A stretch of DNA of 64,000 nt from Synechococcus sp. WH 7803 (lineage in GTDB: Bacteria > Cyanobacteriota > Cyanobacteriia > PCC-6307 > Cyanobiaceae): positions 1,147,918-1,211,917 of the forward strand of contig CT971583.1 in the NCBI GenBank assembly GCA_000063505.1, given 5' to 3'. The notes below the pieces were generated by a model. That model was not told the origin of the DNA and searched no databases. It worked only from the letters and a program-made list of their open reading frames with translations. Positions 51,046 to 57,379 of this stretch are shown in pieces. Positions within the stretch are counted from its first letter, which is position 1; every line of letters begins with the position of its first letter. The translations under genes and the position numbers were made by a program.

Positions 51046-51708
51046 ATGTTGTTCAACTTGCCACAGAAACTTCAGAGCCTGAAAATGGTCGCTGCGGTGT
51101 CCAATTTTTTGGAGAAGCCGGATCTCGATAATGTTTATGGGGTAGGGGCCAGCCTCCAAGGTTCAGAAATGTCGCGCCAGATGGGCCGACACTTAATGGA
51201 CAACTCTCGCTTCCGTGCACTTGTTGAAGAAAATTGGAGACCGCCTGCGGTTCAGCTCAACGAATTATTAGCGATGCCAGCGGGCAGCTTAGGTCAAGTT
51301 TATGCCGATCAACTCTCTGTTCAGGGACTAAACCCAGAAAGCACAATTGATCACTCCGAAATCACTTCACCATCGAGTTATATCAAACATCGAATGCGTG
51401 AAACTCACGACATTATTCATGTTTTAACCGGCTTTGGTGTTGATGCCGCAGGTGAAATGGGTGTATTAGCATTTGGCTTGGCCCAAAATCGTCATCCCCT
51501 AGCTGTACTCCTTATTCTTGGAACCCTTTTGAAAGCGTTACAAGAAGACGTTGACTTAGCACCAATATTGAGGGCCATTAGCAAGGGCTTCAAGCTTGGT
51601 TTATCTGCACAGACTGCAGTGGCATTTAAATTAGAGGACGCTTGGCAGCGCCCAATTGAAGAATGGAGAGACGAAATCGGACTTCCCCGCAATCCTGAGT
51701 CAGCTTGA
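51046..51708 (+). CDS. Coq4 family protein, copy A
   Basis: 220 residues of the Coq4 family, known from ubiquinone synthesis in eukaryotes and some bacteria, where it removes or replaces the C1 carboxyl of the ring. The family metal motif H-D-x2-H-x11-E is intact as His121, Asp122, His125 and Glu137 in ETHDIIHVLTGFGVDAAGE. No membrane span. Cyanobacteria make plastoquinone, so the substrate is uncertain. A paralogue of the same length lies 3.1 kb further on (54796-55458) and shares the same start (MLFNL), end block and motif. Strong terminator 32 bases after the stop. Confidence 0.82.
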   Translation: MLFNLPQKLQSLKMVAAVSNFLEKPDLDNVYGVGASLQGSEMSRQMGRHLMDNSRFRALVEENWRPPAVQLNELLAMPAGSLGQVYADQLSVQGLNPESTIDHSEITSPSSYIKHRMRETHDIIHVLTGFGVDAAGEMGVLAFGLAQNRHPLAVLLILGTLLKALQEDVDLAPILRAISKGFKLGLSAQTAVAFKLEDAWQRPIEEWRDEIGLPRNPESA

Positions 51709-51739
51709 TTGATCAATGCCAAGAACTTAATAAAGAAAG

Positions 51740-51766
51740 GGTGGCTAACTTGCAGCCACCTTTTTT
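51740..51766 (+). terminator. Rho-independent terminator of Coq4 copy A
   Basis: GGTGGCT-aacttgc-AGCCACC followed by TTTTTT; a seven-base stem with a seven-base loop. It also lies in the convergent gap with the minus-strand MFS gene, where the minus reading has CTTTCTTT and may serve weakly too. Confidence 0.85.
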
Positions 51767-51832
51767 ATGGTCGATTTTCCGCGCCACACTGAGACCAAAG
51801 AGAAGGGAGCGATGCTGCTCACTAAAGAGTTG

Positions 51833-53392
51833 TTATCTCCGGAAGGGAGAATGAATTGAAAGTTGCCTGCCGATCGTACTTGTCAATCGACGTCCGCCTT
51901 TGGATTGCATTAAGAGGACGAAGAAAGCGAGCATGTATAAGACGATTGCTAATATGTAGAACTCTCGATATCCATCAACAAATGCGACTTTTGCTGCTTC
52001 AATTAGGGTGTTACGTTCGTTGAATGGCAACGAGTCAGCAACCCGAAAGGCGCCACCGATTGAACCGGTCGCATTCAACTTCGCCGACTCACCGAGACGA
52101 GAGAGAGTTTCGCTCATCATTCTGGACAAATTGCCCGAAAGAACCACGCCTGATAACGCGATACCAGTGGACAAGCCATATCGCATCACCATGGCATTGA
52201 GAGAGGCACCGAAACTTCGCTGATCTTCGTCATAGGAGGCGAGAACTCCATGCACCATGACTGCTGGTTCGATACCAGCACTGCCGGAAAGGATGAAGCC
52301 AAGGGTTAAGACAATCGGGTTTGGGGTAACACCGGCAAAACCAATCAATCCATAGCCTAAAGATGCGGTTAATAAGCCCAGCATTGCTAAACGGTAAGAA
52401 CCAATGCGCTTGCTGAGTACTCCAGAAAAAGAGCTACAAAGAATCCACACAAACGTTGCTGCTACAACGAGTAATGCTGCCGTGAAGGCCGATAATCCCA
52501 CCACCAACTGCAAATATTGCATGTTCAGAAAGATCATGCCTCCATACACTAATTGAACAATCCAATTGATACCCGTTGGGACAAGAAACGTCCGTTTACG
52601 AAGTTGCTTGAACTGAAAGAGTGGATTTGAACAACGAGCTTCGTGTACAACTAAAGTGATAAGTGACAAAACGGCGATGCCAATTGAGCTGAAAAAAATA
52701 AATTGATTTGCTGATGCGTTCGTCAAGTTAACCATAAAGAGCAAGCTACTGGTGCCAAACAATGCGGTAAGTGCAGCTCCGATCTGGTCAAACGTTCGCT
52801 TTTCCCCTTTAGGACCTGCCCGCTTCGGTATTTCTGAGTAAACAATCAAAATCGAAACCAAGAGCAAAGGCGCCACAGACAACAAAGCTGCTCTCCAGGA
52901 CACAGTCGTAATCAAATAGCCAGCAAGTAGAGGTCCAAGGAGACCACCAATTGCCTGAGCTGCAGTAACAAGTCCAATCGCAGTGCGACGACGGGATTCA
53001 TCAACAACTTGATAGGCCAAGACCAGCGCTGAAGGCATGACAAGAGCACTTCCAAAACCGGAAAATGTTCGAAATGCGATCAGTGTGTTTACATCCACAA
53101 CCATCGAAGCTCCCACAGCCGATACCGTCAGGATTGATAAGCCGATCACAAGGATGCGGCGAAAACCGTATTGGCTTGCCCAATGTCCACCAAACAGCAT
53201 GAATGCTGACGCGGCCAGCGGTGTGCAATTCACGATCCAGGTGAGCTGCTCGGAATTAACCACAAGCGCCTTTGATATCGGAGGTAATGCAACGCTGGCA
53301 ACGGTGGTGTTAATGGCGACTGCCACATAGGCCAGAACAAGACCCCAAAACGCAATTGGCATTTGGGGGGACAACCGTTTAAATGAAATCAT
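51833..53392 (-). CDS. MFS exporter, DHA2 (14-helix) type
   Basis: 519 residues with about 14 membrane helices. DHA2 signatures include NTTVASVALPPISKAL and WIVNCTPLAASAFMLFGGHWA at the N-terminus, the motif A-like DRxGRR-type loop (QYGFRRILVIG), and motif C-type GGLLGPLLAGYLI near 150. The family exports hydrophobic drugs and metabolites by proton antiport. The ATG at 53392 lies two bases after the stop of the upstream membrane gene (GTG at 53398 would overlap it), so both are translated as one unit. I infer export of whatever the neighbouring enzymes make. AT-rich like its neighbours. Confidence 0.85.
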   Translation of the reverse strand: MISFKRLSPQMPIAFWGLVLAYVAVAINTTVASVALPPISKALVVNSEQLTWIVNCTPLAASAFMLFGGHWASQYGFRRILVIGLSILTVSAVGASMVVDVNTLIAFRTFSGFGSALVMPSALVLAYQVVDESRRRTAIGLVTAAQAIGGLLGPLLAGYLITTVSWRAALLSVAPLLLVSILIVYSEIPKRAGPKGEKRTFDQIGAALTALFGTSSLLFMVNLTNASANQFIFFSSIGIAVLSLITLVVHEARCSNPLFQFKQLRKRTFLVPTGINWIVQLVYGGMIFLNMQYLQLVVGLSAFTAALLVVAATFVWILCSSFSGVLSKRIGSYRLAMLGLLTASLGYGLIGFAGVTPNPIVLTLGFILSGSAGIEPAVMVHGVLASYDEDQRSFGASLNAMVMRYGLSTGIALSGVVLSGNLSRMMSETLSRLGESAKLNATGSIGGAFRVADSLPFNERNTLIEAAKVAFVDGYREFYILAIVLYMLAFFVLLMQSKGGRRLTSTIGRQLSIHSPFRR

Positions 53393-53394
53393 GG

Positions 53395-54690
53395 TCACTT
53401 CACAGACCCAGGTAATTGCAAAAGACCAGACATTGCTTGCGAATACTTAAGCAATCCAGTTGTCGTCCATGCGAAGTACTGGGCTCGGAACCGAAGCGAG
53501 GATGCTTGCCAGAAAAGATCGTTTATGATTAACTTAATCAAGAATATACTTTTAAGTCGGTAACGACTGTACCAACCAAAAATTGATATTTCCAAAGCAT
53601 CCACGACAGTTGTACAGCAATTTTGCCTTGTTATGTGATAAGTGAGGCGCTCCCGTGCGTAGTTCTGAAAATGGCTTAGTCTTTCATAAGAGTAATTTGT
53701 AACTTGAATTGTATGGGTAGGTTCACCGCGAAGCTCAAGATCTTCTCGGTAGGACATCCTCCAACGAGCTGGCATTCTGTAGTGTTGATCCATGCGAATT
53801 GCTCGTTTCATATTGGATGCACTGCTTTTTTCGGGATCTAAATGGGCTAAATCATTTTGAGGGCAAAAGCTGATATAAATATCGGAACCACATTCAAGGG
53901 TTGCATGGTGTGCCGTGGGGCCTGAGTTCGCTCGATGTGGCGATAACGTTGAACTAAAAAAGTTCCACAATTCAGCAATATATGGATAAGGAATCATCTG
54001 TTCACTATTCGTGAGCCATATACGGATTGTCATGGGTACTGGCTGGCCATCGTCGCCGATCAATGGACCATCGTTACGTGAAGTGGTTGGTCCGTCTGTA
54101 AAAACCGGTATTGAGGTATTTGTGAGCCGACCACGACGAAAGGCTAGACGAAGACATGAGATCGAAAAAACAATCAATACCAGAGCCAAAAACAAATTAG
54201 GTTTTTCGGGCTCTGGTATAAAATCAGCAACAAAAAAGATCGCTAAGCATAAATAGATAACCGCTTTCAGGCACTGCACTCTCCACCTTTTTGGCCGGAT
54301 CATCACTGAAAAGAGTCCAAAGATGATTGCATTGATAAACAATACTGCTCCAATGATTTCTCCCCAAATAAAAATCATTATTCCGCTCTGCTGTTGCAAT
54401 CGCAATATCAAAGCAAGTGCAGTAATGCTAATCAGAATAAGTCTTGGTTGGTTGAGTCGAGATCGCGCGAAGGCCGAATTACTCGGCATTATAAATCCGA
54501 TCCATATCGATAATAGTAAAAATAAAGAAAAAGCGATTGCAACCGAATGAAGAAAAGGATTTGGCTCTGCGTTAACATTGAATAAGAAGAGTAAACCTAG
54601 GATTAAGCTTGCGAAAGCCATGACTCCTAGGATCGTGCGATAGCGGCCAATACCTCGAACACCCAAAAAGAGTGGTAGTAAATCGAGCAT
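53395..54690 (-). CDS. Membrane protein with C-terminal permuted papain-like domain (putative)
   Basis: 431 residues. Six hydrophobic helices (about 18-38, 48-68, 82-97, 104-130, 138-156, 165-182) give an HdeD-like membrane half. The soluble C-terminal half (about 220-375) has a His block, TAHHATLECGSDIYISFCP (His261/262), followed by a Cys block, ITRQNCCTTVVDAL (Cys358/359). That His-before-Cys order and the NC-x-T-V context resemble circularly permuted papain-fold enzymes such as LRAT-like acyltransferases and related proteases. The function is unknown; a hydrolase or acyltransferase at the membrane is my inference. Coupled to the MFS gene, in a low-GC stretch. Confidence 0.6.
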   Translation of the reverse strand: MLDLLPLFLGVRGIGRYRTILGVMAFASLILGLLFLFNVNAEPNPFLHSVAIAFSLFLLLSIWIGFIMPSNSAFARSRLNQPRLILISITALALILRLQQQSGIMIFIWGEIIGAVLFINAIIFGLFSVMIRPKRWRVQCLKAVIYLCLAIFFVADFIPEPEKPNLFLALVLIVFSISCLRLAFRRGRLTNTSIPVFTDGPTTSRNDGPLIGDDGQPVPMTIRIWLTNSEQMIPYPYIAELWNFFSSTLSPHRANSGPTAHHATLECGSDIYISFCPQNDLAHLDPEKSSASNMKRAIRMDQHYRMPARWRMSYREDLELRGEPTHTIQVTNYSYERLSHFQNYARERLTYHITRQNCCTTVVDALEISIFGWYSRYRLKSIFLIKLIINDLFWQASSLRFRAQYFAWTTTGLLKYSQAMSGLLQLPGSVK

Positions 54691-54795
54691 GAATGGTCTT
54701 TACAATCACTCCAACGTTAGCCAGTGATTCTCTTTTTACCAACTATTGGCAGCTAACAAATATTTGACTAGTCTTGGATCACTTGATCGATTGGT
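54691..54795. promoter_or_regulatory. Divergent promoter region with inverted repeat
   Basis: A 105-base spacer between the divergent membrane-protein gene and Coq4 copy B. GTTAGC at 54716-54721 and GCTAAC at 54752-54757 form an inverted repeat with a 30-base gap. It could be an operator, but the repeat is only six bases long and no matching promoter hexamers stand out. Confidence 0.25.
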
Positions 54796-55458
54796 ATGCT
54801 TTTCAATCTCGATAAAAAAGCGCAAGCGCTGAAGATGGTTGCGGGATTGTCATTGTGGATGAAAAATCCTGATGAGCTAAATAATGTTCGTGCCGTAGCC
54901 GGGAGCCTGCGTGGTACGAATCTATTTGCACAATCGATGGCTCACCTCCTGAAGAATTCACGGTTTCAGGCTCTCGCAGACGAGCGTTGGCGTCCTCCTA
55001 CCAAATCCCTGAAAGAACTTTCTTTGCTTCCTAGTGGAAGCCTTGGGAAGACTTATGCGGATGAATTAATCAAGCAAGGATTTTCGCCGGATGAGCTTAT
55101 GGACAGCGGTGAAGTGACAAATTTAAAGAGTTTTGTTTCTCATCGGCTACATGAAACTCATGACATCATTCATGTGTTGACGGGCTTTGGCACCGACCTG
55201 GTTGGAGAAATGGGTCTTCAGGCTTTTGCATTGGCGCAAAACCGTGCACCGCTTGCTGTTCTTTTAATTGCGGGCTCACTTCTGCGTGCATTGCAAAACG
55301 ATGAACCCCTTGAACCTTTGTTGATGGCTCTAAGCCGTGGATTTGAGTTGGGTCTTAATGCTGATTTAGTCATTGCATATAAATTAGAAGATCAATGGAA
55401 GTTATCCGTTGAGGAATGGAGAAAAACTCTTGGCATTACGGATCATCAAAACAATTGA
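54796..55458 (+). CDS. Coq4 family protein, copy B
   Basis: 220 residues, paralogue of copy A with roughly half of positions alike (for example RWRPPTKSLKEL, THDIIHVLTGFGTDLVGEMG, KLEDQWKLSVEEW). Its H-D-x2-H-x11-E motif is intact as His122, Asp123, His126 and Glu138, so both copies should bind metal. Two intact but clearly diverged copies suggest two different steps or a heteromer rather than a recent duplication. Upstream spacer is shared with the membrane-protein operon. No terminator seen after it; convergent with the DUF2063 gene 39 bases away. Confidence 0.82.
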   Translation: MLFNLDKKAQALKMVAGLSLWMKNPDELNNVRAVAGSLRGTNLFAQSMAHLLKNSRFQALADERWRPPTKSLKELSLLPSGSLGKTYADELIKQGFSPDELMDSGEVTNLKSFVSHRLHETHDIIHVLTGFGTDLVGEMGLQAFALAQNRAPLAVLLIAGSLLRALQNDEPLEPLLMALSRGFELGLNADLVIAYKLEDQWKLSVEEWRKTLGITDHQNN

Positions 55459-55497
55459 TCGCCATCATCTTTCTTTGCCCTTGTTGTGAGCAGTAAT

Positions 55498-56346
55498 TTA
55501 CTTCAGTTCTGACTGAAGATCAACGATCACTCCTTCTGTGATCAAACGTTGGACGAGATTGATTGTATCCATATCTCCGTAGTTATAAAAACTGCCTTCA
55601 TGCTTTAATGAGGCAAGTGTGTGTGTCCCGTCACAATGATTCAATAACAGCGATTCTTCATGATTTAAGCGTCGAACAATAACTTGATTCTCAAGGTCTG
55701 AATAAATTAAAAATGTAGCGATTCCTCCTTCAACCATTGGCAAGCGATGCTTTGATGCATCGGTTCCGGCAAGAGCTTTCAGTGCTTCAAGATCAACTCC
55801 TGATACGCAAAGTCTCGTACCCCGATTCAGCCTTGGACGTGCCCAAATGTGACAACGGTGGTGTAAATCTTGAATGAGTTCTTGAACAGGTTTGCGGTTG
55901 CGAGATGGTGCAAGTTTTGCCCATAAGCATCGCCAATCCAACATCCCTGCTGCCAATAACATCTGAGGGAAATTGACATCCGTGATATCGAGACTGTACG
56001 AAGCAGACAAAGAGTCAAGAGTAGACTTGTCGATGCATCCTAAAAAGCATGCAAATTCTGTCGCTAATGTTTGCGCATTGAGTGGTTCTCCAGGTGACGA
56101 CTCATAGAATTTTTCGAGAATCTTTTCAAACGCTTCAGCGCCAATCAGCCATCTCACAGTCTTGAACACATCGTGCAGTGGATCGACAGTTCGTGCCATC
56201 GCTCGATGAAGGTAGATCTTGAGAATCTCTTCAGCACCCGTGAAACCTTGTGCAGGAATGATCTGATCAACAATCCAGGGTGTTGGTTCTCGATGCAAGC
56301 TCGCCAAGAATTGCTGTTGAAGACGCAGGAGCTGGGGGGACTTCAT
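55498..56346 (-). CDS. DUF2063 (BufC/HvfC-type) protein with PqqD-like C-terminus
   Basis: 282 residues. N-terminal DUF2063 domain (about 1-105: LLRLQQQFLASLHRE, EILKIYLHRAMARTVDPLHDVF, LIGAEAFEKILEKFYE). Middle part with a Trp/Cys-bearing segment (MLDWRCLWAKL). The C-terminal 60 residues (about 223-277: VIVRRLNHEESLLLNHCDG, then TINLVQRLITEGVIVDL) look like a PqqD-type winged helix, a peptide-recognition element. DUF2063 proteins are partners of DUF692 oxygenases and bind the precursor peptide. The DUF692 gene lies 145 bases upstream on the same strand, so the pair probably forms the complex. Confidence 0.72.
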   Translation of the reverse strand: MKSPQLLRLQQQFLASLHREPTPWIVDQIIPAQGFTGAEEILKIYLHRAMARTVDPLHDVFKTVRWLIGAEAFEKILEKFYESSPGEPLNAQTLATEFACFLGCIDKSTLDSLSASYSLDITDVNFPQMLLAAGMLDWRCLWAKLAPSRNRKPVQELIQDLHHRCHIWARPRLNRGTRLCVSGVDLEALKALAGTDASKHRLPMVEGGIATFLIYSDLENQVIVRRLNHEESLLLNHCDGTHTLASLKHEGSFYNYGDMDTINLVQRLITEGVIVDLQSELK

Positions 56347-56420
56347 GACAAGTAAGAGCTTTGAGAGTTGAGTGGTGTGGCGTTGAACTGAGCGTGTCGT
56401 AAGGTTTTGGATTGTTGTGC

Positions 56421-56449
56421 TGAATGAATGCTTGAAAAGCGTTCATTCA
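56421..56449. repeat. Long hairpin in the DUF692-DUF2063 spacer
   Basis: TGAATGAATGCTT and AAGCGTTCATTCA are inverted copies with one G-T type mismatch, separated by GAA, giving a 13-bp stem and three-base loop in the mRNA between the two minus-strand genes. Neither side has a T run in the reading direction, so it is not an ordinary terminator; it could stabilise or process the message, or act as an operator. Confidence 0.55.
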
Positions 56450-56491
56450 AAAATCGGAGAGAAGTGATCGAAGCAAGCCATCGCCTATGAA

Positions 56492-57379
56492 TTATGTTGC
56501 TCCTGGTGCAACAGATAAATCATTCAGGTAGCGGGTAATTCGGCTCACTTCTTGAAGTGTGCGTTCAAGTGGAGGAACATGATTTTCCCATTCCAACAGG
56601 GTTGGCCATGGTCCAAAGTGTCTTAGTGCTTTTTCATAAAGATCCCAAACTGTTTCATGAACTGCCTCACCGTGATAATCAATGTAGACATCTCCATCGC
56701 CTGCTTGCTGACGCGTGCATCCTGCGAGATGGTATCCCCTGACGCTGCTTTGGCGATATTCCATTAATTGGGTCAGTGGGTTCTCTCCAAAATTAACTGC
56801 ATTGGCCCAAAGATTATTGACATCCATTAATACATAAGCACCAGTTCGCTCCGTTAAAGCGTTGATGAAAGATGGTTCATCGTAAGTGGAGTCACGAAAG
56901 CGCATGTAACTGCTGATGTTCTCGAGCAGAATGGGTTGGCCGATCAATTCCTGAGCCTGGTCAATCCGTTCTACCAAATAATCGAGTGTCTCATCATTCA
57001 TGACCAGTGGAAGCAAATCGTGGAAGTGATGATGAGAGAGTGAGCTCCAAGAGACATGATCAGAAAAGAAGGCTTCTGGATGTTCCTTCAAGACACGCTT
57101 TACTAGCTGCAAATAGTCCTGATCCAGTGGTGCGCAGGAACCCAGAGACAAACCAAAACCGTGCAAGACAATTGGATAGGCGTGCCTGAGATCATCCAAT
57201 TGGTCGCGATACGTGCCCCCTTCCTCTTGGATGAGGTGTTCTGGGTGAATCTGTAAAAAATCTAATGGCGGTCTTTGATGCCACACTTCAGATGCGTTCT
57301 CATGGCACAGGTTGAGCCCAGCGGTCGCTCTGGCAAGACCTGTGGACAGAGGAGAGAGAGACGTGGATGTTGACGGCAT
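56492..57379 (-). CDS. DUF692 multinuclear non-heme iron oxygenase (MbnB/TglH/BufB type)
   Basis: 295-residue TIM-barrel enzyme. The family's metal-ligand blocks are all present: LHGFGLSLGS (His73), SDHVSW (Asp107, His108), LLENISSY (Glu153, Asn154), DVNNLWAN (Asp186), YHLAG (His217), DYHGE (Asp234, His236) and LLEWEN (Glu263). Relatives bind two or three irons and oxidise cysteines of ribosomal peptides to oxazolone/thioamide or other products. I use the ATG at 57379 (MPSTSTSL); a TTG at 57445 would add 22 residues. The DUF2063 gene follows. No DUF2282-type precursor gene is seen in the window. Confidence 0.85.
   Translation of the reverse strand: MPSTSTSLSPLSTGLARATAGLNLCHENASEVWHQRPPLDFLQIHPEHLIQEEGGTYRDQLDDLRHAYPIVLHGFGLSLGSCAPLDQDYLQLVKRVLKEHPEAFFSDHVSWSSLSHHHFHDLLPLVMNDETLDYLVERIDQAQELIGQPILLENISSYMRFRDSTYDEPSFINALTERTGAYVLMDVNNLWANAVNFGENPLTQLMEYRQSSVRGYHLAGCTRQQAGDGDVYIDYHGEAVHETVWDLYEKALRHFGPWPTLLEWENHVPPLERTLQEVSRITRYLNDLSVAPGAT

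Follow-up and report, generated by a model that had tools for sequence, protein, structure and literature searches.

The stretch analysed here (the window, 64,000 nucleotides in all) belongs to a genome of 2.37 Mb in a single contig (G000) and contains a gene for a predicted MNIO (DUF692) enzyme followed, after 145 bp, by a gene for a DUF2063 partner, with a gap of 194 bp upstream of the first. These two genes and their neighbours are listed in Table 1.

Table 1. Genes of the MNIO cassette in the window, with the evidence for each assignment
Feature	Position	Strand	Evidence
MNIO (DUF692) oxidative enzyme, predicted	56492..57379	minus	PF05114, 304 bits; conserved blocks
MNIO partner, DUF2063 with predicted C-terminal PqqD-like RRE (PME-type 1)	55498..56346	minus	PF09836; structural model
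Coq4-like protein, convergent on the partner gene, possible accessory	54796..55458	plus	PF05019, 74 bits (cut-off 22.9); HDxxHx11E
431-aa protein, no assigned family	53395..54690	minus	C-terminal part weakly Lnb_N-like, 12 bits, E 0.16, below cut-off
MFS transporter, DHA2/EmrB kind, possible exporter	51833..53398	minus	MFS_1, 133.5 bits
Second Coq4-like protein, possible accessory	51046..51708	plus	PF05019, 70.8 bits; HDxxHx11E

With the ATG at 57379 as its start the MNIO has 295 aa (317 aa if a TTG further upstream is used), and its PF05114 score, against a cut-off of 25, places it in the MNIO superfamily. BufB is its best NCBIfam model with 272 bits, below the equivalog cut-off of 310, which the second MNIO copy of this genome (268 bits) also fails to reach, and the MbnB model gives 47 bits against a cut-off of 325. 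The blocks LHG, SDH, EN, DVNN, HLAG, DYH and LLEW, which we take to hold the metal ligands of these enzymes, are all intact in the comparison of sequences. Compared with the MNIO of G022 the dN/dS ratio is 0.054 at a dS of 1.2 (such values come from 4 of the 8 pairs compared), which suggests that the gene is under purifying selection.

The partner matches PF09836 (DUF2063) with 52.6 bits (cut-off 27.2), while by sequence alone it matched no NCBIfam model and no solved structure below E 0.66. Its structural model (pLDDT 79) resembles NGO1945 (3dee) at Z 15.9 with 194 residues aligned, TglI at Z 13.6 and 13.5, and MbnC at Z 4.4-4.9. The C-terminal part resembles PqqD (5sxy, Z 5.7) and a lasso-peptide RRE (6jx3, Z 5.8), each of these matches being weak when taken alone. 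With the DUF2063 signature and a C-terminal RRE fold, the latter as judged from the model, the protein qualifies as a partner of PME-type 1. A preliminary description of this DNA had proposed that the enzyme keeps every metal-ligand block and that the partner ends in a PqqD-like element. The blocks are indeed there, and the modelled fold bears out the second proposal.

Around the pair, the 431-aa protein is common to G022, where it has an orthologue (in L008). The MFS transporter matches the SmvA and EmrB subfamily models below their cut-offs and could possibly export the product of the pair. Cyanobacteria make plastoquinone, and here a cyanobacterium has two Coq4-like proteins bearing the HDxxHx11E motif. 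In the genes of the cassette, from 51046 to 57379, the G+C is 0.42-0.48, whereas ccsA, lptF and the gene after them have 0.55-0.57, and the same is seen in G022; since its G+C is below that of the flanking genes, the window cassette looks acquired.

A second, paralogous MNIO-partner pair lies elsewhere in this genome (C1:65.4 kb), between clpX and clpP, in a cassette with a G+C of 0.62-0.67, the same as its own flanks. The two MNIO copies are 75% identical. PF05114 is present in 2 of 31 genomes of the genus and 20 of 400 of the family. A phylogeny of 36 MNIOs unites the window enzyme with the second copy and nine others in one clade (11 rows, 100/100) that excludes the bufferin enzymes of cyanobacteria and plasmids. 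This tree omits the second G098 copy, G147, G319 (two) and G391 from the family sample and 14 rows of ≤34% identity from a sample of 386 genomes, and for plasmid matches it uses 3 of 350 records. Two genomes of another family (G507 and G516) fall inside the clade, their MNIOs being 55-56% identical in the 386-genome sample, and one genome (G083) carries both kinds, clade and bufferin. Among plasmids the relatives of the enzyme reach 42% identity at best, and in viral contigs no relative was found. On one 38 kb contig of G098 (C68; L064, L065) the MNIO, the DUF2063 gene and a multicopper oxidase (MCO) gene occur twice as mirror images, perhaps an assembly artefact, and we have counted this locus once.

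DUF2063 was present in 10 of the 16 genomes tested, exactly the ten that have a clade MNIO. In G507 and G516 it may not be the true partner, since it is remote from the MNIO and shares only 29% identity with the partner protein of the window. The presence of an RRE-bearing partner in all 10 clade genomes suggests a peptide substrate. Neither between nor beside the genes of the window pair could a precursor-like ORF be found, and the same was true beside the second pair, so that the DUF2282 or BufA2 precursor that precedes the MNIO in bufferin operons is missing at both. At six of six bufferin-type loci from the same bacterial family, our positive control, a Cys-bearing BufA-like ORF was recognised by eye directly upstream of the MNIO. 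A search of the whole genome with the DUF2282 profile gave one match (G000:C1:1711933; 22.3 bits, 22.5 with frame neighbours, cut-off 22.4), which we consider spurious, as it has an internal TGA and is antisense to an ORF read by eye as ctaB. The best BufA2 score in the whole genome was 12.9 bits (cut-off 60), and a degenerate EGKCG pattern, characteristic of oxazolin and fontiphorin precursors, had no matches. The preliminary description had reported no DUF2282 or other known precursor beside the pair; this stands for the gaps around both pairs, and the three genome-wide searches brought up nothing credible elsewhere. At one of the bufferin-type loci (L071), where the MNIO clears the BufB cut-off (368 bits against 310), the precursor, the only one tested, scores just 22 bits with BufA2 against 60, hence a divergent and distant precursor could escape the profiles.

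We also collected 206 short ORFs from gaps near the MNIO and MCO genes in 12 stretches of 9 genomes (G516 left out), discarding any that overlapped a named gene by more than 35%, and compared the 192 of them with ≤130 aa. There were 14 cross-genome matches at E ≤0.01, of which 11 were in the MCO flanks of G000 and G022, one was between G284 and G208 and two were apparently low-complexity. No short ORF was common to the MNIO neighbourhoods across genera among these 192, with first-start calling and blastp-short, a procedure that can miss very short peptides.

What does accompany the clade, both by co-occurrence and by adjacency, is a giant MCO of 1459-1758 aa. In 7 of the 10 clade genomes (G083, G098, G258, G270, G284, G507 and G516) an MCO of 1459-1631 aa adjoins the MNIO or the pair, or is located within a few genes. 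There are also remains of this arrangement: in G208, an eighth clade genome, the pair adjoins an MCO remnant that contains a stop, and G147 has an MNIO fragment and an amine-oxidase fragment, both with a stop, beside an intact MCO. In this genome the MCO (1744 aa, C1:882187-887418) is outside the window and unlinked to the pair, and in G022 it is likewise present and unlinked. Within the family sample the MCO was found in 14 of 400 genomes (E under 1e-100; G276 included on a partial match, and seven weak partial matches with E from 1e-30 to 1e-38 left out), namely in 7 of the 8 that have a clade MNIO and in 7 of the remaining 392 (Fisher p 9e-11, ignoring kinship and assuming that the MNIO and MCO searches covered the same 400 genomes). 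In the phylum sample it appeared in 4 of 377 genomes (G000, G012, G507 and G516), of which all but one are clade genomes, while the plasmids yielded no MCO.

The linked MCOs carry the His and HCH copper motifs of multicopper oxidases. That of this genome matches Cu-oxidase_2 with 45.4 bits (cut-off 20.4), and Cu-oxidase_3 with 19.2 bits, below the cut-off of 21 that is exceeded in L003, L061 and L063. Its nearest solved relative scores 52 bits. The protein also has DUF4114 (39 bits over 27) and a DUF4214 match below cut-off (17 bits against 23.2), a domain make-up from which we judge it to be probably secreted. The C-terminal part was modelled, with modest confidence (pLDDT 72.5, pTM 0.54), as beta-propeller-like and then helical, with integrin-like matches at a TM of ca. 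0.25. The DUF4114-bearing region of another protein of this genome, a 1263-aa Beta_helix/NosD-like protein (L137 7777-11568, G000:C1 ca. 832.8-836.6 kb), is 51% identical to the N-terminus of the MCO.

A tree of 15 MCOs splits them into 11 and four (100/100). The 11 linked sequences comprise nine from genomes with a clade MNIO, that of G147 with its remnant and that of G310, on a 10 kb contig, a genome in which the family-sample search found no MNIO; the sister group comes from G012, G023, G296 and G322. The presumed type-1 copper site reads HCHILPH in the linked group and HCHLLEH in the sister group, and the nine differ from the four at 18 positions, several of them close to copper motifs. 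In G012, G023 and G296 the surroundings of the MCO include an MFS gene and a GMC oxidoreductase (the Pfam run covered G012). Related MCOs are thus accompanied by different intracellular redox enzymes, and the carrier is frequent in the two settings, MFS genes being present also in 8 of 11 clade loci. The GMC oxidoreductase beside the G012 MCO (L109 4956-6503) scores 358 bits with the model of the mycofactocin dehydrogenase MftG (cut-off 387) and 359 with that of the choline dehydrogenase PRK02106 (cut-off 605).

Because the clade MNIOs travel with the giant MCO, the pair most likely serves the pathway of this enzyme. The explanation that we tentatively prefer, with somewhat less than even confidence, is that the pair, which belongs to a separate cyanobacterial clade, is not coupled to any neighbouring RiPP precursor and acts in the pathway of a giant MCO that is probably secreted. 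The RRE partner would present a ribosomal substrate encoded elsewhere, the MNIO would oxidise it in the cytoplasm, an MFS carrier would export the oxidised product, and the MCO would act on it, or together with it, outside the cell. The Coq4-like or amine-oxidase proteins may be optional accessories. There is evidence against this explanation too. In this genome and in G022 the MCO is unlinked, and the MFS genes of the clade loci fall into at least three dissimilar kinds, with none found in 3 of 11 loci. The linked-type MCO of G310 is without a detected MNIO, and G284 retains an intact-looking MCO together with an altered MNIO. The latter (L066 9297-10178) is still an open frame, as is that of G208 (L067 9196-10077), and both have lost presumed iron ligands (H108Y, D186N and H236R in the first; D186N, H236R and E263D in the second).

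One alternative is that the MCO is itself the substrate, a residue of which would be oxidised by the RRE-guided MNIO before export to give a modified side chain or cofactor. Apart from the partner, no protein gene but that of the MCO was found to accompany the clade, in G083 ca. 30 bp separate the end of the MCO from the MNIO that follows, a position occupied by bufA in bufferin operons, and the MNIO landscape paper allows for protein substrates (PMC12452194). We compared the MCOs in search of residues kept only alongside an apparently active MNIO, and the outcome was a single Gly (of 165 label swaps 3 gave higher counts and some others equal ones); no residue of the compared MCOs behaved like an MNIO target. 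The only Cys column that they have in common is the presumed type-1 copper ligand, and the sister MCOs keep their copper motifs without any MNIO. Given this lack of a tracking residue, the cases of G284 and G310 and the variable accessories, we consider the MCO rather unlikely as the substrate. The further proposal that the pair matures an enzyme and not a peptide, with an MNIO devoted to a copper enzyme and oxidising a residue of the giant secreted MCO, we hold to be unlikely.

The pair might also make an ordinary metallophore, modifying a distant small Cys peptide outside the models used, in which case the link with the MCO would reflect a shared copper or metal stress. Copper is common to both systems, the window MNIO has a BufB score of 272 bits, and MNIO-PME1 pairs form 5-thiooxazole metallophores (PMC13097082); for thiooxazole the same paper reports a UV-visible signal at about 305 nm. 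But the searches for DUF2282, BufA2 and EGKCG gave no precursor in this genome (with the reservation about divergent ones illustrated by L071), the clade is separate from the bufferin enzymes and G083 has both kinds, and we consider this reading unlikely as well. A small-molecule pathway, in which Coq4-like and amine-oxidase proteins would take part and the MCO would oxidise an exported aromatic or aminophenol-type product with no ribosomal substrate involved, is very unlikely. In its favour, Coq4-like genes are part of three loci (G000, G022 and G083); the partner gene adjoins an amine oxidase in G083, in G270 and at the second pair of G000, while G507 and G516 have one elsewhere in the genome; and the NCBIfam model that names the MCO best is that for O-aminophenol oxidase PhsA, with 41 bits (cut-off 950). 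Against it, all 10 clade genomes have an RRE-bearing partner, 5 of the 10 lack the amine oxidase (present in five of 16 genomes, plus the G147 fragment), and the other loci examined showed no Coq4-like gene. In G507 and G516 a thiamine-diphosphate decarboxylase adjoins the MFS gene near the MNIO (L068 15075-16805, L069 5552-7282); it resembles indolepyruvate decarboxylase (414 bits for the one in L068, cut-off 946).

Pairs of the MNIO-PME1 type are known for producing peptides that bind copper. With a clade that has no adjacent precursor and tracks a giant MCO, enzyme maturation or an exported redox product would be added to what these pairs do, and the MCO provides a concrete candidate partner for an MNIO pair in picocyanobacteria. 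Such a case also shows that, where an MNIO has no precursor next to it, gene calling has not necessarily overlooked one. The main text of the landscape paper (PMC12452194) contains neither “cyanobacteri” nor “Synechococcus” nor “copper oxidase”, the available text of PMC13097082 neither the first nor the last of these, and the only match in the literature searched for DUF692 together with multicopper oxidase concerned the copper response of Caulobacter. The association of the clade with the giant MCO is not described in these sources (mostly open texts, without supplements), in keeping with the original suggestion of an undescribed system. The interpretation given in the preliminary description is thus supported in part, the action on cysteine and the release by the nearby exporter being proposals. 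A pair of this kind, linked to an MCO and with no precursor found, points to an undescribed job.

Among the known systems closest to the window pair are the bufferins (BufA-BufB-BufC), with which it shares the order of MNIO and then a DUF2063 partner with a predicted RRE, as well as BufB as the best model. It differs from them in having no adjacent precursor or DoxX, in the sub-threshold BufB score and in belonging to a separate clade associated with a giant MCO. TglHI (pearlin) and MbnBC (methanobactin) also combine an MNIO with a helical partner, and the model of the window partner is, as described above, much closer to TglI than to MbnC. No TglA-like or MbnA-like precursor is seen at the window pair, however, and the MNIOs of these systems match the window enzyme with 24-54 bits only. 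As for the MCO, it shares with the CotA, PhsA and CueO type the Cu-oxidase domains and the His and HCH motifs, and is set apart from them by its giant size, by a predicted beta-propeller-like and helical C-terminal part and by its distance from any solved relative.
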